Positions 1-9,777 of a stretch of 9,777 nt of DNA are shown one piece after another. The DNA lies in NCBI GenBank assembly GCA_017520105.1, contig JAFWRL010000065.1, positions 1 to 9,777 on the forward strand. The letters are read 5' to 3'. The notes under the pieces are model-generated. The model had not been told where the DNA came from, made no database searches, and saw nothing but the letters and a program-made list of their open reading frames with translations. The stretch is from Fibrobacter sp. (GTDB lineage Bacteria > Fibrobacterota > Fibrobacteria > Fibrobacterales > Fibrobacteraceae). How positions within the stretch are numbered: position 1 is the first letter of the stretch; every line of letters starts with the position of its first letter. Position numbers and translations under genes: made by a program.

Positions 1-918
1 CGCCGCGAAGGCCACGACGTGACCATCTTCGAAGCTTTCCACAAGCTCGGTGGCGTGGTCCGCTATGGTATTCCTGAATTCCGTCTTCCGAAGAAGATTG
101 TCGATAACGAAATTGAATCTCTCGCCGCTATGGGCGTGAAGTTCGAAACGAACTTTGTGATTGGCCGTACCCGCAAGCTCAAGGACCTCATCGAAAAGGA
201 TGGCTTTGACGCTGTGTTCGTCGGTACCGGTGCCGGTCTTCCGTTGTTCATGAACATCGAAGGCGAAAACCTCGTCGGTGTGTTCGCCGCTAACGAATAC
301 CTCACCCGTGCAAACCTCATGCGCGCCTACGACAAGGAACATGCCGATACGCCGATGTGGCCTGGCAAGAACGTTGTCGTCCTCGGTGGTGGTAACGTCG
401 CTATGGACGCTGCCCGTATGGCTCTCCGCCTCGGTGCAGAAAAGGTCCGCATCATCTACCGTCGTAGCATGAACGAACTTCCGGCCCGTAAGGAAGAAGT
501 TCTCCACGCTCAGGAAGAAGGTGTCGAATTCTGCATCTTGCAGAACCCGGCCAAGATTCTTGGCGACGAAGCCGGTCACGTCCGTGGCATGCTCGTCGAC
601 AAGTACGAACTCGGCGAACCCGATGAAAAGGGCCGTCCGCGTCCGGTCAAGGTCGAAGGCGCAAGCTTCGAAATCGAATGCGACACCGTGCTCGTTGCTA
701 TCGGTAACGGTTCCAACCCGCTTATCAGCAACACCACGCCGGAACTCTCCGTCGATAAGAAGGGTCACATCCTTCTCGAAGATGCAACCGCCAACAAGAC
801 TTTCATGGAAAAGGTCTATGCAGGTGGTGACATCGTGCTCGGCGCTGCAACCGTGATTCTCGCCATGGGCGAAGGGCGTCGCGCCGCTGCGGGAATTAAT
901 GAATTCCTCAAGAAGTAA
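1..918 (+). CDS. GltD/GltA-like NADPH-dependent glutamate synthase small-subunit family oxidoreductase (5' partial)
   Basis: The reading frame is open from the first base, so the start lies outside the window; the GTG at 19 is an internal valine. 305 codons remain. Seen: the segment GIPEFRLPKKIV near the left edge, typical of the family after the first FAD-binding motif; a second Rossmann motif GGGNVAMDAAR (window codons about 129-139) for NAD(P)H; and a C-terminal FAD-contacting segment (AGGD, then GAATVILAMGEGRRAA). The family moves electrons between NADPH, FAD and Fe-S clusters, either as the glutamate synthase small subunit or as the NfnB/SudA-type ferredoxin:NADP oxidoreductase. About 150 residues of a stand-alone protein (N-terminal Fe-S domain and first FAD motif) would be missing. 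A fused form with an upstream dihydroorotate-dehydrogenase-electron-transfer-like domain is equally possible, and the true substrate cannot be decided here. A terminator follows closely, so this is the last gene of its transcript. Cytoplasmic. Confidence 0.93.
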   Translation, partial: RREGHDVTIFEAFHKLGGVVRYGIPEFRLPKKIVDNEIESLAAMGVKFETNFVIGRTRKLKDLIEKDGFDAVFVGTGAGLPLFMNIEGENLVGVFAANEYLTRANLMRAYDKEHADTPMWPGKNVVVLGGGNVAMDAARMALRLGAEKVRIIYRRSMNELPARKEEVLHAQEEGVEFCILQNPAKILGDEAGHVRGMLVDKYELGEPDEKGRPRPVKVEGASFEIECDTVLVAIGNGSNPLISNTTPELSVDKKGHILLEDATANKTFMEKVYAGGDIVLGAATVILAMGEGRRAAAGINEFLKK

Positions 919-929
919 TTCTTAAGCTG

Positions 930-954
930 TCATTCCGGCCCCCGAGCCGGAATC
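930..954. repeat. REP-like GC-rich intergenic palindrome
   Basis: ATTCCGGC (932-939) and GCCGGAAT (946-953) form a perfect 8-bp inverted repeat around a 6-nt loop, starting 14 nt after the stop codon of the oxidoreductase gene. The form 'GTCATTCCgg...ccGGAATC' resembles dispersed intergenic palindromes found in many bacterial genomes. It has no T-run directly after it and is separate from the terminator that follows. It may act as an RNA 3'-end stabiliser or be a dispersed repeat; only one copy is in the window. Confidence 0.5.
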
Positions 955-960
955 ACCTTT

Positions 961-992
961 AAAAAGGAACGGCAATTGAGCCGTTCCTTTTT
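961..992 (+). terminator. Rho-independent terminator after the GltD-like gene
   Basis: A perfect 13-bp stem (961-973 with 980-992) with a 6-nt AATTGA loop ends in five T. The A-run on the 5' arm mirrors the T-run, so it could also work on the minus strand. It separates the oxidoreductase transcript from the GH5 gene. Confidence 0.9.
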
Positions 993-1073
993 GTCAATTC
1001 ATCCTTTTTTGTGACATCGTCTTTTTGCGAATCTTTTGATTATATTCATAGTGGGGATATTTAAGGAGATGTT

Positions 1074-2678
1074 ATGGTTTGGTTTAAAATTTTCAAAATC
1101 ACTTGTGGCGTAGCGATGCTTGCAGGCGCTGTTTCTGCAGCGACGCTTCCGACCGCAAAAGACGTTCAAGCCAAGATGGGCTTGGGCTTCAATATCGGCA
1201 ACTCGATGGAAGTGCCGAACAACCCGACTTTATGGGGCAACCCTTTCCCGACTCAGGCTTTGCTGGATTCCGTGAAGGCGGCTGGTTTCAATACGGTGCG
1301 TATCCCTTGCGCTTGGGACAGTCACACGAGCGGTGGCAAGGTCACTGAAACATGGCTCGATTCCGTGAAGACGGTCGTCGATTACGCCATGCGCGCTGGT
1401 CTCTATACGATTTTGAATATCCACCACGAAGGTGAAGGCGGTTGGTTCCAGAGCAATATCGGCACGAGCGTCAATAGCAACATCGACAACAAGATGAAGA
1501 CTTACTGGACGCAGATTGCGAACAAGTTTAAGAACTACAATGAACGCTTGCTCTTCGCCGGCGCAAACGAACCTGGCCCGAATGTGAATACGTGGACATC
1601 GCAGCATGTGCAGACGCTCATGCACTACTACCAGACTTTTATTGATGCTGTGCGCGCTACGGGCGGCAACAACGCAACTCGCACGTTGATTATCCAGGGC
1701 CTCAACACAGACATTGACAAGTCCGTCGCAAACGCTCCGGTAAGCACCTTCCCGAAAGACAAGGTCGAAGGTCGCCTGATGTTCGAAGTGCATTACTACG
1801 ACCCGTATCAGTACACGCTCATGACGAGCCAGCAGGACTGGGGCGCAAGCGAACCTATTCAGCCGCAGTACTATTACGGCGACTACACCAAGGCGAGCGA
1901 ACCCAAGCGCAATGCGGGTTACAACGCTTGGGCGGGCTCTGTAGATTCCAAGCTCGGGAGCATCGTGCATCCGCAGGAACAGTTTGCCAAGATGAAGACA
2001 AATTACGTCGATAAGGGCTATCCGGTGATTGTTGGCGAATTTGGTGCGAACGTTCGCTCTCCGGAATTGAACGGCTCCGACCTGAACCTCCACAAGCAAG
2101 GCCGCGTGCAATGGCATAAAGACGTGGTCTCTGCCGCCAAACAGTACGGACTCACCCCGATTCTTTGGGACATGGGCAACGAAAGCAACAGTAACTATGA
2201 CAACATGGCCTACATCTGCCGTCAAAGTGCGCCAGTGGGCAAGGTTCTCGAAACGGACGTTATCAACGCCATGCGCGGTGTTTATGGCCTCGGCAATTAC
2301 GTGAACAACGGCGTCACCCACGTGGAAGACTTTATCACGGGCGGTGGAACGGAAACGCAGTCTAGTAGTGCTGCCGCCTCTAGCTCCAGCAATGGCGTTG
2401 TCGCGGCGTCCAGCAGTTCCGCCGTGCAGTCGAAATCGTCTAGCTCGGGGACGATCGCGCTACCGACCGTCCTCGCGGGTGATGTCGTAAAATTCCATCG
2501 CGACGGCAACACGCTTTACGGCTCAGGCAAAATTATGCTGTTTGACATGAACGGAAACCTCGTGCGCTCTACGAATAACGTGCTCGCCGGGCAAACCGAA
2601 ATGCAACTGAACGGCCTCCGTCAGGGCAATTACATTGCCAAGTGCGGAGCCAAAGTTCTGCAAGTGCAAATTCGCTAG
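1074..2678 (+). CDS. Secreted GH5 endoglucanase with poly-serine linker and C-terminal tail domain
   Basis: 534 residues. A ribosome site AAGGAG (1063-1068) lies 5 nt before the ATG. Residues 1 to about 22 form a signal peptide (hydrophobic core, cleavage likely after VSA). Residues about 30-410 are a GH5 (beta/alpha)8 barrel: GFNIGNS (38-44), GFNTVRIP (71-78), NIHHEGEGGW (115-124), acid/base Glu166 in NEP, VHYYDPY (239-245), nucleophile Glu322 in VGEFG, and a tryptophan in ILWDMGN (363-369). Family members cut internal beta-1,4 bonds in cellulose or related beta-glucans; fine specificity cannot be read here. Residues about 428-459 are a serine/alanine linker, a common Fibrobacter trait. Residues about 484-534 are a small beta-rich tail (LFDMNGNLV ... 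LRQGNYIAK) related to sorting or attachment domains and to the tail of the next gene, so the enzyme is probably kept at the cell surface or secreted through the outer membrane. It sits between two terminators and is probably monocistronic. No convincing -35/-10 pair was found; TATATT at 1041-1046 is a possible -10. Confidence 0.94.
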   Translation: MVWFKIFKITCGVAMLAGAVSAATLPTAKDVQAKMGLGFNIGNSMEVPNNPTLWGNPFPTQALLDSVKAAGFNTVRIPCAWDSHTSGGKVTETWLDSVKTVVDYAMRAGLYTILNIHHEGEGGWFQSNIGTSVNSNIDNKMKTYWTQIANKFKNYNERLLFAGANEPGPNVNTWTSQHVQTLMHYYQTFIDAVRATGGNNATRTLIIQGLNTDIDKSVANAPVSTFPKDKVEGRLMFEVHYYDPYQYTLMTSQQDWGASEPIQPQYYYGDYTKASEPKRNAGYNAWAGSVDSKLGSIVHPQEQFAKMKTNYVDKGYPVIVGEFGANVRSPELNGSDLNLHKQGRVQWHKDVVSAAKQYGLTPILWDMGNESNSNYDNMAYICRQSAPVGKVLETDVINAMRGVYGLGNYVNNGVTHVEDFITGGGTETQSSSAAASSSSNGVVAASSSSAVQSKSSSSGTIALPTVLAGDVVKFHRDGNTLYGSGKIMLFDMNGNLVRSTNNVLAGQTEMQLNGLRQGNYIAKCGAKVLQVQIR

Positions 2679-2739
2679 TTCTCGCGGCAGTTACGCTTTT
2701 TGAGGCTGTCTCGCTTTACGTGCTACATGACCATTGAAA

Positions 2740-2767
2740 AAATCTCCGCTTCGGCGGGGATTTATTT
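2740..2767 (+). terminator. Rho-independent terminator after the GH5 gene
   Basis: A 10-bp stem (2740-2749 with 2754-2763, one T-G wobble) is capped by a TTCG tetraloop, an especially stable RNA loop, and runs into a T-rich stretch. It lies 61 nt after the GH5 stop and cuts it off from the next gene. Confidence 0.9.
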
Positions 2768-2824
2768 ATAAAATTTTATATTTTGTAAAAAAAATATGTG
2801 TAGAGAGCCGTTGGAGTGAATAAA

Positions 2825-4537
2825 GTGAAAAAAATTATTGGTATCCTGTTTGTCCTTTCGACATTTTGTTTTGCAGAATGGTCTGGTGACGCTTCTCAAC
2901 CGTCTTCTTCGCGCCAAGTTGATGGAAAAACTTTTTGGTCTATTACAAGTCCCGAAGAGTTGGCCTGGTTCAAGGCTCAAATTGAGGCTGGCAATGACTC
3001 CATAAATGCTATCCTCGAAAATGATATCATCATGGGCAAGGATTCTGCAAGCGTTGGCTCTGCTGTTTGGACTGCAATTGGAGCCTCAGACAGCATCGTG
3101 TTTAAGGGCGTGTTTGATGGTAATCGCCATACCATATATGGTCTTAAAAGCGAGGGCTCCGTTTCGAATCACGGCATGTTTGGACTTTTTGGAATTGTAG
3201 GCGGTCAGGGTGTTATAAAGAATCTAGACCTCAAGAATGTCGATATGAATAGCGGTTATTCCAATGAAGTTTATCCTTGTGGGGGAGGTATTGTCGCGTA
3301 TTTGCTAAATGGAACAGTAGATAGCAGCTTTGTTTCGGGCCGCATGAATGCAAAACGTACGAGTTTTGCTGGCGGTCTTGTGGGGCAGAATGCGCGGGGA
3401 ACTGTTTCTAATTCAACGAATAAAGTAGTTATAACGCATACAGGCGAATACACGGGCTATTATGTCGGTGGTATCGTTGGAAAAAATGGCGGGACCGTTT
3501 CGAATTGCATCAATTATGCTGCTATGTCTGGTAGCGGCGTAAAATCAATTGGAGTTATTGGAACAATTGGCGGTATTGTCGGGTATAATGTTGGCGGAAC
3601 TGTCCTAGAATGTGTTAATGTCGGTAACATCCATGTGGATATGAAAACAGAAATGTCAACTCGGAATGCCGAAGCTCGCGTTGGCGGAATTGTAGGGTTT
3701 AATTACCAGGGCTCTGTTTCAAAATGTGCCAATTATGGCTCGATGAAAGCCCAGGCAAGCTCGGAATTAAGTAAGGATTACGATACCGGAACTCTAATCA
3801 TCAACTACCCGGAAGCCGGTGGAATTGTTGGAGTTTCTTTAGATGGGCTTGTCGAAAATGTCGTGAATTACGGCACTGTAGAGGCTACGTGCCCTAATGT
3901 TGAAAATAATGCCACTGCCGGCGGGATTGTTGGCATGTTGAATAATTCCGGCATTACAAACGGTTATTCGATGGCTACCGTGCAGTCTAATAATATGGCC
4001 GGATCCTTGGTGGGAATGGCTAAAGATACGTCGTCTTTAAGTGGAATATATGCGGTTGATGGCGATAAAATGAAGACCGTGGCATCTATTGATTCGCTTG
4101 CAACAATAAGCGAAACCAAGGATATTACGAAGGCCGATGCCGGAAACTCCAGCTTTGTGGATTTGCTGAATCAAAAAGATGCTTCGGACAAAATCTGGTC
4201 CAGGTGTGCCGAAAAAGGCTTGCCCGTTATTGCTTCGCTCGCGCAATATATGTGTTCAGAAGATTTGTTGAGTAATGCCGTGCCTCTTGATTCAACGGGT
4301 AAAGGTACAACTGTTCTGTCCGGCGTCAAAAAAACAGGACGGCATTATGTCCAGCTTGTTGGGCGGGACCTTCAAGTTACGACTCCTGATTTTAATGATG
4401 TGGTGTCGGTTTTCGATTCCCGGGGCAAAATACTTTATCAGAGTTCCTGGGGCACGAACCGTCAGTATCGTATGGCTCGTGCTGGCCGGTATATTTTAAA
4501 GATTGATCAGGACATCCGCGTCATTACCATAAAATAA
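2825..4537 (+). CDS. Secreted GLUG-repeat (beta-helix-like) surface protein with C-terminal tail domain
   Basis: 570 residues from GTG 2825. An upstream in-frame GTG at 2816 is less likely because GGAG (2813-2816) overlaps it, while the same GGAG is 8 nt before 2825 and gives a signal peptide starting MKKIIG. Residues 1 to about 17 are the signal peptide (cleavage after CFA). Next is a segment with WSITSPEELAWF and FKGVFDGNRHTIYGL, typical of the N-terminal part of GLUG-repeat proteins. Residues about 154-400 hold seven or eight repeats of about 20-50 residues, each starting GG(I/L)VG and followed by a GTVSN-like turn (GLUG motif), expected to stack into a beta-helix. Residues about 525-570 form a tail (VFDSRGKILY ... 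ARAGRYILK ... VITIK) like that of the GH5 enzyme upstream. Known members are extracellular or surface proteins, often linked to adhesion; the ligand is unknown. The gene is more AT-rich than the GH5 gene. A 33-nt palindromic element begins at its stop codon. Confidence 0.85.
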   Translation: MKKIIGILFVLSTFCFAEWSGDASQPSSSRQVDGKTFWSITSPEELAWFKAQIEAGNDSINAILENDIIMGKDSASVGSAVWTAIGASDSIVFKGVFDGNRHTIYGLKSEGSVSNHGMFGLFGIVGGQGVIKNLDLKNVDMNSGYSNEVYPCGGGIVAYLLNGTVDSSFVSGRMNAKRTSFAGGLVGQNARGTVSNSTNKVVITHTGEYTGYYVGGIVGKNGGTVSNCINYAAMSGSGVKSIGVIGTIGGIVGYNVGGTVLECVNVGNIHVDMKTEMSTRNAEARVGGIVGFNYQGSVSKCANYGSMKAQASSELSKDYDTGTLIINYPEAGGIVGVSLDGLVENVVNYGTVEATCPNVENNATAGGIVGMLNNSGITNGYSMATVQSNNMAGSLVGMAKDTSSLSGIYAVDGDKMKTVASIDSLATISETKDITKADAGNSSFVDLLNQKDASDKIWSRCAEKGLPVIASLAQYMCSEDLLSNAVPLDSTGKGTTVLSGVKKTGRHYVQLVGRDLQVTTPDFNDVVSVFDSRGKILYQSSWGTNRQYRMARAGRYILKIDQDIRVITIK

Positions 4538-4569
4538 TATCGTCTTTTGTTGAATCAACAAAACTAATT
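4537..4569. repeat. 33-nt palindromic element, copy 1
   Basis: ATATCG, 2 nt, TTTTGTTG-AAT-CAACAAAA, CTAATT. The inner 19 bp are an inverted repeat with 8-bp arms (4545-4552 and 4556-4563). A second copy in the same orientation at 8401-8433 is identical at 28 of 33 positions. The innermost pair is G-C here and A-T in copy 2, a compensatory change that keeps the symmetry. The arm is AT-rich and no T-run follows directly, so it makes a poor terminator; a dimeric-protein binding site or a dispersed repeat fits better. Confidence 0.7.
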
Positions 4570-4599
4570 ACGTCTTTTTTCCGCCGACAGACGCACCCC

Positions 4600-4628
4600 T
4601 TTACCGTGCATTTCGAATAGTGTATATT
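4600..4628 (+). promoter_or_regulatory. Probable sigma-70-type promoter for the structured RNA / rpn region
   Basis: TTTACC (4600-4605, 4 of 6 to TTGACA) and TATATT (4623-4628, 5 of 6 to TATAAT) are spaced by exactly 17 nt. Transcription would start near 4635, which is where the structured RNA begins. This is one of the two best promoter matches noted in the window. Confidence 0.55.
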
Positions 4629-4634
4629 AATTGC

Positions 4635-4807
4635 GGACTAGATCATCCCGCTGACAGAGGCGTACGCATCCACGGGCGGGTTCATCCACTCTCACAGTCG
4701 CAGGTCCGGTTTTGACGGAAGCGATGGCTTGATCATCCCTGCCTTGGAATACCCATGCGGAATGCGCTGCGATACATATCCCGTCTGCGGCAGCGGATGG
4801 CTTTAAA
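4635..4807 (+). ncRNA. Candidate structured RNA of about 170 nt with a long rod-like fold (6S-like shape; identity unproven)
   Basis: Hand folding gives one continuous rod: 4639-4642 with 4802-4805; 4644-4653 with 4791-4799 (9 bp, one bulged C); 4655-4660 with 4781-4787 (6 bp, one bulge); 4661-4668 with 4763-4771 (8 bp, one bulge); 4669-4680 with 4737-4748 (11 bp, two single bulges). Then comes an internal loop (4681-4696 against 4726-4736). The tip is 4697-4701 with 4721-4725 and 4705-4708 with 4716-4719, closed by a 7-nt loop. The promoter at 4600-4628 places the start at the foot of the rod. Overall shape (closing stem, large internal loop, apical stem-loop, near-equal halves) and length fit 6S RNA. 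The tip CAGGTCCGG...GGAAGC recalls SRP RNA helix 8, but the usual GGAA tetraloop is missing. It could instead be the structured 5' leader of rpn. No clear terminator follows: 4827-4830 with 4837-4840 is only a 4-bp stem without a T-run. Confidence 0.5.
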
Positions 4808-4921
4808 CAAATCTCTCAAATTTTAACCGCTGTATGGCGGGGTTTAGGGCTGTTGCCTTTTGCACGGTTGCATCCTCCTCATACGCATTTTTGGCCGTAT
4901 TTTAGCGGCAAAGGACCTTTT
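4808..4921 (+). other. Gap between the structured RNA and rpn
   Basis: This is the rest of the 384-nt gene-free stretch 4538-4921. It holds a weak hairpin (CCGC 4827-4830 with GCGG 4837-4840) and the rpn ribosome site AAAGGA (4910-4915). An in-frame TTG at 4853 could extend rpn by 23 codons, but it lacks a good ribosome site and the added residues look unlike the family. Nothing else is seen. Confidence 0.5.
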
Positions 4922-5950
4922 ATGAATAAAAAGCAATATGCTGAAATGCTCAAGGATATCAGCGAGACGCACAAGAATGGAGGCGATGTTTCCGCGTGCA
5001 TTGCAAAGTACAGAAAAATTTACAACTATGTCTATATCTATAACGACAATATCTTCAAACTGCTTTTCGGAAATCCTGAAAACGAGTCGATTACCGTTGA
5101 TTTTCTCAATGCTGTGCTTAAACTCGATGGAGGGGATTGCATCGAAAAAGTCACATTTGTGAATCCCGCTCTCCCGGAAGCTTTTGGCAAGAGCATTACC
5201 TCGGATGTCGTAGCTCTTGATCAGCGTCAGGATCGTATCGTGCTTGAAGTTCAGCATGTCGAGCATGATTCCTTCAATAGTCGTTTGGTTCTTTATGCTG
5301 CAAAGCATACAATTGCAAGTCGTATTAAAGGCGATGACTACAAGCTTCGTAACTTGAATGTCATCAGCCTTCAGATGTTTGACGGATTCCCCGAGTCGCG
5401 CAATTACAGACACTGCATTCAGCTTAAGAATCAGGATAATGAGTTGTTCTACGACAAGGAAACGATAACGCTTGTTGAAATACCCAAATTTCTCAAACGC
5501 AAATACGAAAAAGATTCTAGCAGGCTTGCGTTGTGGCTCCGCGTGTTCGATGGGTTGAACAATGAAAGCCCTGTTGATGTTCCAAAGGGCTCGCAGTACG
5601 CCCTATTGCAGGAAAAGGCCAAATTGTGTATCTTTACAGAGGACTTCCTTGTAAGTGAGGCTATGAAAATGAGCGACCACAATTATGAACTCTATGTCGA
5701 AAAGAAGAACGCCCGAGCCGAGGGCCTTGCAGAAGGCCGCGTTGAAGGTCGCGTTGAGGGCCTTGCTGAAGGTCGCGCGGAAGGTCGCGTTGAAGGCCGC
5801 GTTGAAGGCCGCAACGATGAACGTACTGCGGTCGCTCTTGACATGCTTGCCGACAACGAACCGATTGAAAAAATTGTCAAGTACTCGCACCTTCCCGAAA
5901 GCAGAGTCCTTGAACTTCGGGACTCTCGGGCGACCTACAACAGTAAGTAG
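4922..5950 (+). CDS. Rpn-family PD-(D/E)XK nuclease (recombination-promoting nuclease / putative transposase)
   Basis: 342 residues from ATG 4922, chosen because AAAGGA lies 6 nt upstream; an in-frame TTG at 4853 is poorer. The nuclease fold is shown by DNIFKLLFG (42-50), then Asp95 in SDVVAL and Glu109-x-Gln111 in IVLEVQ. This D...ExQ pattern is the PD-(D/E)XK variant usual in Rpn/PDDEXK_2 proteins. Residues 266-297 are eight four-residue units (A/V)EG(R/L), followed by a C-terminal helical segment (298-342) with EPIEKIVKYSHLPESRVLEL. Known from E. coli: Rpn proteins are DNA endonucleases that act as toxins against phage, and are held in check by a small protein (RpnS) translated from inside the same gene; four-residue repeats of varying number lie in the RpnS helix. 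This gene shows both the repeats and a plausible internal start. Domain homology is clear; a role in defence is inference. It lies between the structured RNA and a strong terminator, probably as a single-gene transcript. Confidence 0.88.
   Translation: MNKKQYAEMLKDISETHKNGGDVSACIAKYRKIYNYVYIYNDNIFKLLFGNPENESITVDFLNAVLKLDGGDCIEKVTFVNPALPEAFGKSITSDVVALDQRQDRIVLEVQHVEHDSFNSRLVLYAAKHTIASRIKGDDYKLRNLNVISLQMFDGFPESRNYRHCIQLKNQDNELFYDKETITLVEIPKFLKRKYEKDSSRLALWLRVFDGLNNESPVDVPKGSQYALLQEKAKLCIFTEDFLVSEAMKMSDHNYELYVEKKNARAEGLAEGRVEGRVEGLAEGRAEGRVEGRVEGRNDERTAVALDMLADNEPIEKIVKYSHLPESRVLELRDSRATYNSK
5655..5671 (+). promoter_or_regulatory. Internal ribosome site and start codons inside rpn
   Basis: GTGAGG (5655-5660) precedes two in-frame ATG codons at 5663 (2 nt away) and 5669 (8 nt away). 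The 8-nt spacing to 5669 is normal for translation initiation. It lies just upstream of the repeat-bearing C-terminal domain, where an RpnS start would be expected. Confidence 0.4.
5669..5950 (+). CDS. Candidate internal small protein (RpnS-like antitoxin), C-terminal part of rpn
   Basis: A 93-residue product starting at rpn Met250 (or 95 residues from Met248), in the same frame as the nuclease and sharing its stop. It would hold the eight (A/V)EG(R/L) units and the C-terminal helices but none of the catalytic residues. In E. coli Rpn systems a separately translated C-terminal protein blocks the full-length toxin. The support here is positional only: an SD-like GTGAGG at good distance, and the domain boundary at the right place. 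Whether it is made is unknown. Confidence 0.35.
   Translation: MSDHNYELYVEKKNARAEGLAEGRVEGRVEGLAEGRAEGRVEGRVEGRNDERTAVALDMLADNEPIEKIVKYSHLPESRVLELRDSRATYNSK
5717..5812 (+). repeat. Tandem 12-bp repeat, 8 units, coding for (A/V)EG(R/L)
   Basis: Eight in-frame 12-bp units run without gaps from 5717 to 5812. The consensus is G(T/C)(T/G)GAAGG(T/C)CGC, with units 1 and 4 ending in CTT. Unit order in protein is AEGL, AEGR, VEGR, VEGL, AEGR, AEGR, VEGR, VEGR. Because a unit is four codons, gain or loss of units keeps the frame. This favours copy-number change by slippage or recombination without loss of function. Confidence 0.95.
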
Positions 5951-5985
5951 CTTGCAATTCGCTTTTTGTGTGGCTACACTATTTA

Positions 5986-6016
5986 AAAAGGGACTGCTTT
6001 AGCGGCCCCTTTTGTC
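5986..6016 (+). terminator. Rho-independent terminator after rpn
   Basis: A 12-bp stem (5986-5997 with 6002-6013; one A-C mismatch, one T-G wobble) has a TTTA loop and ends in a T-run. It separates rpn from the lipoprotein genes. Confidence 0.85.
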
Positions 6017-6156
6017 GTATTCTATTCACTTTTGGAAAAAAGCGAATGGAATTGACGCAAAAATTGAAAAAAAGTGGAAAAATACAGGCCTTTGGCTCTT
6101 TGCAATAGAATTCCTTTCAATTAGTTTTATTTCTAGAAACAATAAGGAGGTCTGTT

Positions 6157-6732
6157 ATGATGAAAAAAGTGATTGTTCCGTTTGTGGCTATTGTGGTGGG
6201 TTTTGGCCTTTTTGCCGCCTGCTCCAATGATTCCGATTCTGCTAACTCGCAGGTGAGTGGCACTGATAATTCAACTGTGGCGAAAATTGAATCTATCTCC
6301 TATGTTGCAAGTGAGGGCTCGTGCAACAGTGAAGGCGCGTTAATGAAAACTGTACCGAAGGATGATTCTATTCATCTATATATGAATAAAGATGGTTCTG
6401 CGGTATTGAAAGAAAAAATGGGGACAATTTGCCCTGAGCGAGGTGAAATAACAAAAATATCGATTGAAAAACAAGAAGATACTTTACTGGTTTTCATTAA
6501 ATATTACGAATATCCCCCAGACACTGTTATTGTTTATAACGATTCACTTGGGAAAAATGATACATTGCTTGTCGGTCGCCCTGTTCACCACTGTATGTGC
6601 TATTCCGATTATGAAATAGAAGTGCCTGCGGAATTTTCTGGTGCAAAATTTGTCGGTCTGAAATACACTTTAGATAATACAGATGTCAATGTAAATACTT
6701 TTCTTTATCCCGTAGCTTATGTAAAAGAGTAA
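6157..6732 (+). CDS. Lipoprotein A of unknown function (core shared with the lipoprotein at 7835)
   Basis: 191 residues from ATG 6157, with AAGGAGG (6144-6150) 6 nt upstream; ATG 6160 is also possible. MMKK, a hydrophobic stretch and FAAC give a probable lipoprotein signal with Cys22 as lipidated residue (-3 is Phe, so the lipobox is not ideal). A Ser/Asn/Asp-rich spacer follows, then a domain starting AKIESISY. The domain has Cys in GSCN, ICPE and CMC (four Cys, possibly paired), and runs of alternating hydrophobic residues (DTLLVFIKYY, DTVIVYN) that suggest a beta-sandwich. I do not recognise the family. Codons for residues 53-160 match those of lipoprotein B almost exactly, while the signal peptides and ends differ. 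A possible -10 (TAGAAT, 6106-6111) has no clear -35. The gene is AT-rich and is followed after 37 nt by a small secreted ORF, probably on the same transcript. Confidence 0.85.
   Translation: MMKKVIVPFVAIVVGFGLFAACSNDSDSANSQVSGTDNSTVAKIESISYVASEGSCNSEGALMKTVPKDDSIHLYMNKDGSAVLKEKMGTICPERGEITKISIEKQEDTLLVFIKYYEYPPDTVIVYNDSLGKNDTLLVGRPVHHCMCYSDYEIEVPAEFSGAKFVGLKYTLDNTDVNVNTFLYPVAYVKE
6313..6636 (+). repeat. 324-bp duplicated core, copy A
   Basis: Direct repeat of 7985-8308 at an offset of 1672 nt, with 10 substitutions and no indels by eye (about 97% identical). The flanking homologous parts of the two genes are far more diverged. This is the pattern of gene conversion or strong purifying selection on the core. 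Confidence 0.95.
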
Positions 6733-6769
6733 ATGATATTATAAAAGATGATTAAAGAAGGAGAATTTT

Positions 6770-6943
6770 ATGAATTTCAAAATAATTCTGTTTACTTGCG
6801 TTTTCTTTATAGTCAGCTCATTTGCCGCGAATCCGACATGGACTACACCAAATAAAGTTGGAGTCTCTGCTTTTGCTGTGAATGATTATTCTAATTATTC
6901 GCCGCCTGCTAATCTTTACAGAACTATTTTGTTCGCTATTTAG
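6770..6943 (+). CDS. Small secreted protein, 57 residues, unknown (possibly a gene remnant)
   Basis: A clear ribosome site AAGGAG (6758-6763) stands 6 nt before ATG 6770. The product begins with a typical signal peptide: MNFK, a hydrophobic run of about 13, then SSFAA with cleavage before NPTW. About 37 residues of mature peptide rich in Asn, Tyr and Pro follow (AVNDYSNYSPPANLY), ending RTILFAI. It has no cysteine and no family I recognise. The short mature part and abrupt end just before the promoter of the next gene would also fit the truncated 5' end of a once longer secreted protein. It lies 37 nt after lipoprotein A in the same direction. Confidence 0.55.
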   Translation: MNFKIILFTCVFFIVSSFAANPTWTTPNKVGVSAFAVNDYSNYSPPANLYRTILFAI

Positions 6944-6952
6944 CTCGTTTTA

Positions 6953-6961
6953 TGGTATAAT
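6953..6961 (+). promoter_or_regulatory. Extended -10 promoter for the TIGR02147 gene
   Basis: TGGTATAAT (6953-6961) is a perfect TGN-TATAAT extended -10. The -35 region is weak (TTCGCT at 6932-6937 with an 18-nt spacer), as is common when an extended -10 is present. Transcription would start near 6968. This excludes the in-frame ATG at 6967 as start and supports ATG 7009. It would drive the TIGR02147 gene and lipoprotein B together. Confidence 0.65.
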
Positions 6962-7008
6962 CCTCGATGCTCCCGCGGGGATTTTACTCTATTTTAAGGG
7001 TACGGAGT

Positions 7009-7842
7009 ATGAAATCGATTTTTGAATACAAAGATTATCGCCTCTATTTGCAGGACTACCTGGATGAACGGAAACGGTACGAAAAGTTTTCGTGGCGTAT
7101 TTTTTGCCGTGAGGCGGGCTTTTCGTCGCCTAATTTTTTGAAGCAGGTCCGTGATGGTGCTTGGAACCTTAGCAAAGTAAAATCGGGACAAGTCGCAAAG
7201 GCGATGGGGCTCGTCGAATACGAAGAAGAATATTTCAAGCAGTTGGTCATTTTAGGTAATACCGAAGATGACGATGTGAAAAAGACAGCTCTTGCTGAAA
7301 TGCAACGAATTGCTTTGGCGTACAAGGAGCGTGTGATTGACAGGGATGCGCTTCAGTATTATGAATCGTGGAAATACCCCGTCATCAGGGAGCTGGCTCC
7401 GCTTATGCGGGGCGCCGAGCCTCGTGACATTGCCGAAGAATGCAAGGAATATGTGTCTGCCGAAGAAGTGCGTGATATTTTGGGTTTTCTTGTCGATACG
7501 GGTTTCTTGAAAAAAGATGGAAATAACGCATATTCACAGACCGATCAGACGGTCATCGGTTCCAAGGAGGCTCTTTCGACTGCAATTCGCGCCATGCATA
7601 AAGAAATGGCGGGTATGGCGTTACGAGCTGTAGATAGGTATTCGGCGGATGAACGCTTTTTTACCGGGATAACCGTTGGCGTTGACGAAGTCGCCTACGA
7701 CAAGATTGTCGATATCATTAAGGATAGCTGCAAAAGGATTGTTGCTGTTGTGAGCGCCAATAAAAAGACAAATCAGGTTTGTCGAGTTAATTTCCAGCTT
7801 TTTCCGGTAACAAATAGAATAGAGGAGAAAACGCATGCGTAA
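7009..7842 (+). CDS. TIGR02147-family protein (Fibrobacter-type paralogous family, probable regulator)
   Basis: 277 residues from ATG 7009, chosen because AAGGG (6996-7000) is 8 nt upstream, the promoter's predicted start lies after the earlier ATG (6967), and MKSIFEYKDYRLYLQDYL is the family's usual opening. Residues about 1-75 look helical and winged-helix-like (WRIFCREAGFSSPNFLKQVRDG, then KSGQVAKAMGL, a helix-turn-helix-like stretch). The middle carries YYESWKYPVIRELAPLM, and residues about 135-185 hold a second possible winged helix (VSAEEVRDILGFLVDTGFLKKDG). The C-terminal part (EMAGMALRAVDRYSADERFFTGITVGV) is also family-typical. The family (related to DUF4423) is known in large numbers from Fibrobacter and also from Bdellovibrio; its biochemical role is not established, and regulation of the neighbouring surface-protein gene is an inference. 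Its stop codon overlaps the start of lipoprotein B by 8 nt, so the two are very likely co-expressed with coupled translation. Cytoplasmic; no signal peptide. Confidence 0.9.
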   Translation: MKSIFEYKDYRLYLQDYLDERKRYEKFSWRIFCREAGFSSPNFLKQVRDGAWNLSKVKSGQVAKAMGLVEYEEEYFKQLVILGNTEDDDVKKTALAEMQRIALAYKERVIDRDALQYYESWKYPVIRELAPLMRGAEPRDIAEECKEYVSAEEVRDILGFLVDTGFLKKDGNNAYSQTDQTVIGSKEALSTAIRAMHKEMAGMALRAVDRYSADERFFTGITVGVDEVAYDKIVDIIKDSCKRIVAVVSANKKTNQVCRVNFQLFPVTNRIEEKTHA

Positions 7843-8386
7843 TAAAATCCTTTTTTTAATTGCATTTTCTTTAGTCTTGTTTACGTTGGCGTGCACCGAT
7901 GATTCTTTAGGTGGCGGGTCTTCGATTGATCCGAATGCAGCCCCTGCTGTGGCAAAAATTGATTCAATCTCTTTTGCTGTAAATGAAGGCTCGTGCAACA
8001 GTGAAGGCGCGTTAATGAAAACAGTGCCGAAGGATGATTCTATTCATCTATATATGAATAAAGATGGTTCCGCGGTATTGAAAGAAAAAATGGGGACAAT
8101 TTGCCCTGAGCGAGGTGAAATAACAAAAATATCGATTGAAAAACAAAAAGATACTTTACTGGTTTTCATAAAATATTACGAATATCCCCCAGATACTGTT
8201 ATTGTTTATAACGATTCACTTGGGAAAAATGATACATTGCTTGTCGGTCGCCCTGTTCACCACTGTATGTGCTATTCCGATTATGAAATAGATGTTCCTG
8301 CAGAATTTACAAGCGCAAAATTCATCGGTCTAAAATACACGTCAGACAATACTTATCTCTATCCCATTGCTTATAAAAATGATTAA
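7835..8386 (+). CDS. Lipoprotein B of unknown function (core shared with lipoprotein A)
   Basis: 183 residues. ATG 7835 lies inside the last codons of the TIGR02147 gene (8-nt overlap, different frame), with GAGGAG (7822-7827) 7 nt upstream. MRNK, a hydrophobic run and LAC give a probable lipoprotein signal, Cys20 being the lipidated residue. A Gly/Ser/Pro-rich spacer follows, then the same domain as lipoprotein A starting AKIDSISF, with the same four cysteines. DNA 7985-8308 matches 6313-6636 with 10 mismatches and no gaps; only two change the protein (Glu to Lys in EKQKDT, Glu to Asp in YEIDVPAEF). Outside this core the two genes are clearly related but much less alike, and B lacks a short stretch near the C-terminus (TDVNVNTF in A). 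Function unknown. Its operon partner suggests a pair of cytoplasmic regulator and envelope lipoprotein. Confidence 0.88.
   Translation: MRNKILFLIAFSLVLFTLACTDDSLGGGSSIDPNAAPAVAKIDSISFAVNEGSCNSEGALMKTVPKDDSIHLYMNKDGSAVLKEKMGTICPERGEITKISIEKQKDTLLVFIKYYEYPPDTVIVYNDSLGKNDTLLVGRPVHHCMCYSDYEIDVPAEFTSAKFIGLKYTSDNTYLYPIAYKND
7985..8308 (+). repeat. 324-bp duplicated core, copy B
   Basis: Partner of 6313-6636. Recombination between the two copies would delete the small secreted ORF and the TIGR02147 gene and fuse the lipoproteins into one. Confidence 0.95.
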
Positions 8387-8400
8387 TAATATGGCGTGCT

Positions 8401-8433
8401 ATATCGGGTTTTGTTAATTTAACAAAACTAATT
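8401..8433. repeat. 33-nt palindromic element, copy 2
   Basis: ATATCG, 2 nt, TTTTGTTA-ATT-TAACAAAA, CTAATT, with arms 8409-8416 and 8420-8427. It begins 14 nt after the stop of lipoprotein B and has the same orientation as copy 1 at 4537-4569. The changes are at the 2-nt spacer, the loop centre and the innermost base pair. Confidence 0.7.
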
Positions 8434-8483
8434 GATTTAGCAGCCCTCCTGACGCCTGTTTTCCAATCTATTTTCTAAGGTGG

Positions 8484-8500
8484 GAGAACTGTATGTTCTC
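8484..8500. promoter_or_regulatory. Inverted repeat upstream of the GH127 gene (operator or leader hairpin)
   Basis: GAGAAC (8484-8489), 5-nt spacer TGTAT, GTTCTC (8495-8500): a perfect 17-bp interrupted palindrome ending 29 nt before the GH127 start. It may be an operator for a dimeric repressor, or a leader hairpin near the ribosome site. No convincing promoter was found between 8434 and 8529. Confidence 0.4.
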
Positions 8501-8529
8501 ATGAATCACTTTAGAAAAAGGTGGATATC

Positions 8530-9777
8530 ATGATGTTAGGATGGTTTGGTAAGCGTGTTCGCGCGGCTCTCGCCTTGACGGGGCTTGCTTGCGGCTTTGG
8601 TTTCTCGCAGGATGTGCTTTACCCTGACATGTTCGCTTTGTCGGATGTGCAGCTTTTGGATGGCGTCTTGAAGGAGCGCCAGGATTTGAACATCGAAACG
8701 CTTATGTCGTACGATGTCGACCGCTTGCTCGCGCCGTTTTACGAAGAAGCGGGGATGCGCCCCAAGGCGAGCAAGTTCCCGAACTGGGCGGGCCTCGATG
8801 GTCATGTTTTGGGGCATTATTTGAGCGCCTTGGCGATGCATTATGCCGATAACGACGACGTTCAGGTCAAGGAACGCATTGAATACATCTTGAAGGAACT
8901 CAAGACGATTCAGGACCAGAATTCCAAGGACAATAACTTCAAGGGTTACATCAGCGGAGTGCCGAATGGCAAGCAAATGTGGCTCAAGATGAAGAACGGC
9001 GATGCCGGTGCGCAAAACGGCTATTGGGTGCCGTGGTACAATATCCACAAACTTTATGCGGGTCTGCGTGACGCCTATATTTATGCGGGTTATGAGCAGG
9101 CAAAGACGATGTTCTTGGCGCTTTGCGACTGGGGTATTACCATTACGAATGGCCTGAATGATTCCAAAATGCAGCAGATGCTCGGTACGGAACACGGCGG
9201 TATGCCCGAAGTCTATGCCGACGCTTACAAGCTCACGAAAGACGAAAAGTATTTGAATGCAGCAAAGAAGTGGTCGCACCAGTGGCTTTTGAATCCGATG
9301 TCGCAAGGCAATGACAACTTGACGAACGTGCATGCGAATACACAGGTGCCGAAAGTCGTCGGTTTTGCGCGAATTGCGGAACTCTCGGGCGATGAAAAGT
9401 ACAAGAAAGGTTCCGATTTCTTCTGGCAGACGGTTGTGAACAAGCGCAGTATCGCTATTGGCGGTAACAGCATTTCGGAACATTTCCCGGCGCTCAACAA
9501 CCATAAAAAGTTTGTCGAAGAACGCGAAGGACCGGAATCCTGCAATACTTATAACATGCTCAAGTTGACGGAACGTCTGTTCAACATCAAGCACGATGCG
9601 CATTACTCCGACTTCTATGAACGCGCGCTGTTCAACCATATCCTTTCGACAATCCATCCGAAACACGGTGGTTATGTGTATTTTACGCCAGCACGTCCGC
9701 GCCATTACCGCGTATATTCCAAGGTCAATGCGGGCATGTGGTGCTGCGTGGGTTCCGGCATGGAAAACCCGGCGAAG
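8530..9777 (+). CDS. Beta-L-arabinofuranosidase, GH127 family (3' partial)
   Basis: 416 codons are open to the window's last base, with no stop. Start ATG 8530 (or the adjacent ATG 8533) follows AAGGTGG (8518-8524). Residues 1 to about 27 are a signal peptide (KR-rich start, hydrophobic run, likely cleavage near GFSQ), so the enzyme is exported. Family traits: NWAGLDGHVLGHYLSALAM (about 84-102), WVPWYNIHKLYAGLRDAY, EHGGMPEVYADAY, then the active site. Compared with the characterised enzyme HypBA1, Glu317 (in SEHFP) fits the acid/base; Glu336 and Cys338 (in GPESCNTYNM) plus Cys405 and Cys406 (in MWCCVGSG) fit the zinc site, with Cys405 the likely nucleophile. All five are present. Members release beta-L-arabinofuranose from plant or glycoprotein arabinan side chains, which fits a fibre-degrading cell with the GH5 enzyme nearby. 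The C-terminal part, including any linker or tail domain, lies outside. GC-rich third positions contrast with the AT-rich genes just upstream. Confidence 0.93.
   Translation, partial: MMLGWFGKRVRAALALTGLACGFGFSQDVLYPDMFALSDVQLLDGVLKERQDLNIETLMSYDVDRLLAPFYEEAGMRPKASKFPNWAGLDGHVLGHYLSALAMHYADNDDVQVKERIEYILKELKTIQDQNSKDNNFKGYISGVPNGKQMWLKMKNGDAGAQNGYWVPWYNIHKLYAGLRDAYIYAGYEQAKTMFLALCDWGITITNGLNDSKMQQMLGTEHGGMPEVYADAYKLTKDEKYLNAAKKWSHQWLLNPMSQGNDNLTNVHANTQVPKVVGFARIAELSGDEKYKKGSDFFWQTVVNKRSIAIGGNSISEHFPALNNHKKFVEEREGPESCNTYNMLKLTERLFNIKHDAHYSDFYERALFNHILSTIHPKHGGYVYFTPARPRHYRVYSKVNAGMWCCVGSGMENPAK

Follow-up and report, generated by a model that had tools for sequence, protein, structure and literature searches.

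Most known leader RNAs respond to a single metabolite or pathway, and the antitoxin RNAs of ToxIN-like toxin-antitoxin loci carry a short repeat array. The Rpn proteins of E. coli are reported to be phage defense toxin-antitoxins. Their antitoxin is a protein made inside the gene, and no leader RNA is mentioned in the passages covered of the paper on them (PMC10327210).

We analyzed a 9,777-nucleotide stretch of Fibrobacter sp. DNA (assembly GCA_017520105.1, contig JAFWRL010000065.1, positions 1 to 9,777), referred to here as the window, in which a structured RNA precedes an rpn gene. Like cis-regulatory leaders and orphan riboswitch candidates, this RNA is structured and covarying, has its own promoter, is followed at a short distance by a same-strand gene, and encodes no protein. 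Unlike them, it heads several unrelated defense-type gene families rather than one pathway. The order of promoter, RNA, and nuclease gene is that of type III toxin-antitoxin loci, but the RNA has no repeat array, and one RNA family stands before many protein families. The Rpn protein of the window resembles those of E. coli in its family, its C-terminal four-residue repeats, and a candidate internal start read from the sequence, but its gene differs in having an upstream leader RNA, as far as the covered parts of PMC10327210 allow the comparison.

A promoter and a conserved RNA core precede rpn in the window

The features of this unit lie on the + strand. Downstream of the stop of the preceding gene (2816-4537) is a candidate hairpin, TTTTGTTGAATCAACAAAA (4545-4563), with a T-rich run beyond it. 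This is possibly the end of the upstream transcription unit. A −35 box (TTTACC, 4600-4605) and, 17 nt after it, a −10 box (TATATT, 4623-4628) can then be read from the sequence, and they form the promoter that a first-pass annotation had claimed. Among the copies of the RNA described below, 17 nt is also the commonest spacing of the best −35 box to the −10 box. Of 142 distinct upstream sequences, 97 have a TATAAT-like hexamer (at least five of six positions) at −19/−20 relative to the start of the model, the same position before the RNA as in the window. The next commonest position accounts for 3 of the 142, and 32 have no such hexamer. The promoter geometry and a G at −7 in 70% of copies place the putative transcription start at 4633-4635.

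The conserved core, of the form that we call subtype I, spans 166 nt (4641-4806), which fits the length of about 170 nt first proposed. No open reading frame (ORF) of at least 80 amino acids (aa) crosses it, in agreement with the earlier claim that no protein frame explains the stretch. According to the ORF list, the DNA between the promoter and the start codon of rpn (4922) is noncoding; an alternative longer rpn frame from a TTG at 4853 is also listed and would take in the linker. The interval between the RNA and rpn contains a CCGC..GGCGG hairpin (4827-4840), which is kept in the relatives in genomes G002 and G081, and a GCCG/CGGC hairpin adjoining the ribosome-binding site AAAGGA (4894-4915), which is also kept in relatives. 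The rpn gene (4922-5950) encodes 342 aa that match TIGR01784 (E 5.7e-22) and PF12784 PDDEXK_2 (E 3e-30), with EGRV-type four-residue repeats at the C terminus. This Rpn protein matched none of the PADLOC models.

A family of related RNAs

The first-pass annotation called the RNA uncatalogued, and this was borne out. No Rfam 15 family matched the window at gathering score, and the only hit over this stretch at E up to 10 was a chance-level snoRNA match (E 9.5). The same scans, at gathering score and at E up to 10, found no SRP match, and so the SRP-like tip that had been suggested falls away. For related loci defined below, nothing matched over the RNA in nine subtype II loci at E up to 1, and the 20 subtype III loci (L098-L117) gave only a tRNA, in one locus. 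A literature search of parts of the sources, with the set of 224 motifs reportedly compiled by Weinberg and colleagues in 2017 outside its scope, did not find this RNA family described. In the passages covered, PMC2864571 has nothing on it. The family is thus absent from Rfam 15 and is a candidate for an undescribed shared control element.

A DNA search of 60 relatives gave 11 matches in five genomes, all of which precede an rpn gene or rpn fragment; six span exactly window positions 4647-4783. Model R1 was built from 12 sequences, the window and 11 relatives. In 80 genomes of the genus it had 27 matches in 18 genomes. Twenty of these were strong (163-182 bits, 13 genomes) and seven weak (29-45 bits, five genomes). 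The window core, a training member, scores 166.2 bits. A search of the phylum added two weak matches, in another genus of the same taxonomic family. The nine weak matches have the first helix (H1, below) in common with the R1 sequences and a different middle. We built model R2 from these nine only, with the window excluded. R2 nevertheless finds window positions 4641-4785 with a score of 49.8 bits; the E value varies from 1.4e-11 to 3.9e-11 with the number of bases searched.

Matches to R2 were found in 68 of 167 phylum genomes, with up to six copies per genome among the matches listed. None was detected in the other 99, and such absences are not certain because the model searches used strict filters and scored only some candidates per genome. 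Our copy set contains 155 distinct copies among the matches listed, including the window, which remained of 168 hits once copies in identical contexts had been taken out; one copy is a weak hit of 24.3 bits. All 155 are within one taxonomic family, apparently the Fibrobacteraceae. We distinguish subtype I (the rpn type), subtype II (the nine R2 founders), and subtype III (the common form of 185-190 nt). A pattern scan of 84,980 species for subtype I and part of subtype II found 17 loci, all in Fibrobacter or Fibrobacterales. Outside the phylum, there was no match in phage records, in plasmid records (subtype III query), or in viral contigs (three patterns).

Some other rpn genes have further leaders. 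Those at L229:2450-2655, L237, L246, L247, and L248 follow a more diverged type (type IV), with an AATCC(C/T)GC start, H1-like strands, and a different middle. R2 matched this type in L246 (E 1.7e-5), L229 (E 3.1e-4), L248 (E 8.1e-4), and L247 (E 0.036), with no hit in L237. The rpn upstream regions of L242, L243, L249, L250, and L251 have a short leader of another kind, in which GACGGGG..CCCCGTC-like strands occur together with a GGGCGCGTTCCCG-like motif, and that of L239 looks like this group.

The conserved fold has three parts

The first-pass annotation described a rod in which nearly the whole 5′ half pairs with the 3′ half. A rod is indeed the minimum free energy (MFE) fold of window positions 4635-4810 (−55.8 kcal/mol), but it is no more stable than the folds of shuffled sequences (z 0.06; 98 of 200 dinucleotide shuffles equal or surpass it). 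We rejected it as the conserved structure. In an alignment of the 12 R1 sequences, the rod leaves 74.5% of cells paired, against 74.7% when shuffled, and its covariation score is under the shuffled mean. The claim of a structured RNA stands, but the rod shape is not supported.

A three-part fold fits the same alignment (A3, an unfitted MAFFT alignment). It pairs 98.2% of cells, compared with 94.7% in shuffles, and 8 of its 36 pairs are changed on both sides, compared with 3.7. In A6, an unfitted MAFFT alignment of the nine subtype II sequences, 93.3% of cells are paired, and both-side changes affect 21 of 44 pairs, compared with 10.9 when shuffled. The A3 and A6 figures are both for consensus structures drawn from the alignments on which they were scored. 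Wider alignments agree. Both-side changes are seen in 33 of 44 pairs over 107 distinct rows (17.3 in shuffles) and in 32 of 44 over 53 rows (21.1 in shuffles), and these alignments lean toward structure because they were fitted to the model. Conservation and covariation, the check proposed for relatives, were thus both found.

Helix H1 (4647-4680) has an outer part (4647-4652/4675-4680) and an inner part (4657-4661/4666-4670). All of its cells are paired in A3 (100%), with both-side changes in two of six outer pairs and four invariant inner pairs, and the outer helix is also retained in subtypes II and III. Helix H2 (4692-4707/4759-4772) encloses a variable hairpin and the hairpin 4741-4747/4753-4758. 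In A3, 99.3% of its cells are paired, with both-side changes in 3 of 13 pairs; the window copy has one A-C mismatch. Helix H3 is formed by CCGTCTGC (4781-4788) and GCGGATGG (4793-4800), with 90.9% of cells paired in A3 and both-side changes in three of the six outer pairs that were modeled.

In the window copy, the rod lies 3.8 kcal/mol below the best fold with the consensus pairs. Across the 12 sequences, the unconstrained MFE contains 0 to 36 consensus pairs, and the window, with 0 of 35, is the sole copy with none. A structure claim made from the window sequence alone would have failed. Over the 107 distinct rows there are 643 G.U cells and 28 A.C cells, and therefore the + strand acts as RNA. 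Compensatory changes above controls and strand-specific wobble, as in structured RNAs, are thus both present.

Genes downstream of the RNA

With a limit of 80 aa, 138 of the 155 copies are followed by a first ORF on the same strand, 12 by one on the opposite strand, and 5 by none. Other limits gave similar counts (same/opposite/none: 132/18/5 at 60 aa, 136/13/6 at 100 aa, and 130/16/9 at 150 aa). In some of the 12 opposite-strand cases, a same-strand DUF1016 start that the ORF caller missed is visible on reading the sequence. The upstream gene is on the same strand in 78 copies, on the opposite strand in 64, and absent in 13 (80-aa limit). From the RNA to the downstream ORF, the median distance is 110 nt.

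We scanned 136 downstream proteins, which are the products of the 138 same-strand ORFs minus two of under 70 aa. The main families are DUF1016_N (34 proteins), AlbA_2 (27), ORF6N (23), and PDDEXK_2 (20). Minor ones, among the 25 families listed of 30, include DUF4258 (three), RhuM, Bro-N, and HSDR_N_2 (two each), and, as single cases, an RNA ligase, a Fic protein, and a Gp49 protein. Other downstream genes are toxin-antitoxin-like, and up to 36 downstream proteins match the PADLOC defense candidate PDC-S02. Subtype I is tied to one family: all 21 of its copies precede an rpn gene or remnant. The products of 20 cluster with Rpn, one of them as a 115-aa fragment, and the last copy (L066, the same as L009) precedes an rpn remnant with a sub-cutoff PF12784 match. 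These gene families are not confined to loci with a detected RNA, since rpn-family genes are in 80 of 80 genus genomes and YhcG is in 70 of 80.

Genes are exchanged behind the RNA

At the window locus, genomes G002 and G063 share the unit of promoter, RNA, and rpn (similarity over 4576-5967) with a different gene in front. Genomes G006 and G081 keep the upstream gene of the window, but similarity ends at 4579 and 4581, respectively, and the RNA unit is absent there. In another part of G081, a poorly aligning, much altered core, in which R1 and R2 find no match, is flanked by the same promoter, linker, and rpn. Of 725 pairs of copies at least 88% identical, 330 lose their similarity within the 20-nt bin at the RNA 3′ end.

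RNAs that are 97-99.5% identical precede different gene families, even inside one genome (L122). On the other hand, the nearest RNA neighbor has the same gene family in 39 of 73 copies, against an expectation of 24.7, and none of 500 shuffles exceeded 38 (73 usable copies of the 110 with aligned rows). Thus, there is both some coupling of RNA to gene and some exchange.

Six loci (L122, L123, L124, L126, L127, and L128) contain tandem RNA-gene units, in which 1.4 to 2 kb separates one RNA from the other. The genes of an array differ from each other, except for the two DUF1016 genes of L123. The spacing of two RNAs in L125 is 0.6 kb. At L235:2940-3100 (G071) and L236 (G082), rpn similarity starts only at window position 5649. 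In G071, the rpn promoter is directly before the C-terminal part, which contains ATGAAAATGAGCGAC. Therefore, only an RpnS-like part may be expressed there, comparable to the E. coli Rpn antitoxin.

Promoters and hairpins between RNA and gene

Linkers of testable length (132 of 138) were searched for promoters. A score of at least 10 was reached in none of 20 Rpn linkers, none of 28 AlbA_2 linkers, none of 22 ORF6N linkers, and 1 of 35 DUF1016 linkers (1 of 105 in total), and upstream of the RNA in 84 of 155 copies. Therefore, the RNA promoter is the likely source of the gene mRNA in these four families. With a same-strand gene in 138 of 150 copies and, this one linker apart, no promoter between the RNA and the main-family genes, the arrangement is that of a cis-acting leader. 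A strong promoter was found behind the RNA in all six DUF4258 linkers and in 4 of 21 other linkers, so the RNA is not needed for the gene's transcription start there. A gene in a toxin-antitoxin-like cassette can be transcribed independently.

A terminator-like site is present in 15 of 131 linkers, compared with 4.2% of shuffles. The same detector found such sites after 22 of 136 ORF ends and in 4 of 136 shuffled controls. Many rpn linkers contain ACAC, GTGTACG, and CGTACAC strands, which prompted the idea of a terminator/antiterminator attenuator. When linkers were scored for mutually exclusive hairpins, the mean fraction of shuffles that did at least as well ranged by family from 0.26 (DUF1016) to 0.80. 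For 32 of 104 linkers, no more than 1 of 15 shuffles did as well, and DUF1016 alone stood out among the families, with 15 of its 29 linkers in this set. Because these linkers are related (110 fall into 25 clusters), counts are not independent, and we repeated the test with one representative of each of the 25 clusters and 100 shuffles. Of the 25, 4 then had a p of 0.05 or below, with a mean p of 0.53. An attenuator is a possibility.

Discussion

The element has a conserved fold and strand, a fixed promoter, a same-strand gene, few linker promoters in the main families, and a history of gene swapping. A cis-leader role for rpn, which the first-pass annotation listed only as an alternative, is now the best explanation. 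In our judgment, the element is probably a structured 5′ leader RNA of defense-type genes, here of rpn. Transcription would begin near 4633-4635, the RNA would fold in three parts (H1, branched H2, and H3), and the transcript would continue via the short linker into rpn, with RNA and gene presumably cotranscribed. We infer that the leader regulates the downstream genes: it may control the expression of a nuclease or other toxic protein in response to some signal or factor that all copies share. The family would then head single accessory genes of the phage defense or toxin-antitoxin type in Fibrobacteraceae.

One conserved RNA stands before several unrelated families of nuclease or defense-type genes, with tandem arrays and gene swapping, in many Fibrobacter genomes. 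Tentatively, and with less confidence than we have in a leader as such, we suggest that this one RNA class is a common control leader, which might place unrelated anti-phage and toxin-like genes under one shared signal, with genes exchanged behind a constant RNA. If so, any newly acquired defense gene would join the same RNA-controlled set. If the RNA regulates, it would provide a route to common control of newly acquired, potentially self-harming defense genes. It is also a concrete RNA for probing ligand or protein partners in a gut genus that degrades plant fiber.

The main rival is a free-standing, trans-acting small RNA that has its own promoter, ends by processing or termination, and is only genetically linked to accessory genes. 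It would fit the pairs in which conservation stops at the RNA ends and the DUF4258 and some toxin-antitoxin-type genes with their own promoter behind the RNA, and our terminator scan leaves room for an end before the gene, given that the detector finds few terminators anywhere. A free RNA would not readily explain why the gene is so consistently on the same strand, why the main-family linkers lack promoters in all but one case, or why the subtype found in the window keeps to a single gene family. We consider it unlikely, at perhaps one chance in a handful.

Two other explanations are much less probable than a free small RNA. The RNA might act as in type III toxin-antitoxin loci, as a partner or antitoxin that binds and restrains the toxic protein encoded downstream. 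The near-identical RNAs before unrelated proteins and the lack of a short repeat array in the core make this improbable, even though the RNA precedes the gene in most copies, many downstream proteins are of nuclease or toxin-antitoxin families, and subtype I is found only before Rpn. Slightly less probable again is a gene cassette recombination site, similar to an integron attC, that acts as folded single-stranded DNA. Such a site might be expected from the tandem RNA-gene arrays, the near-identical elements with different genes, and the way in which the unit is present or absent, like a cassette, at the window locus, but the excess of G.U over A.C cells indicates that the + strand fold is kept with wobble tolerated, and the promoter is at a fixed distance.

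The 6S RNA (RF00013) first suggested can be set aside almost completely: length, promoter, and, in the window copy only, a rod-like MFE resemble it, and the genus's own 6S RNA is unaccounted for, but there is no Rfam match at gathering or E 10, the rod is not conserved and gives way to a multihelix fold, copy number varies from none detected in 99 of 167 genomes to six among the matches listed, and the RNA is linked to accessory genes. In 60 relatives searched with strict filters, none reached the 6S model cutoff of 46.4 bits. Four matches under the cutoff (39.8 to 45.2 bits) are all outside the genus Fibrobacter.

Elsewhere in the window, two closely similar putative lipoprotein genes (6157-6732 and 7835-8386) flank a gene (6967-7842), DNA-similar copies of which occur in many of the 80 genomes of the genus.
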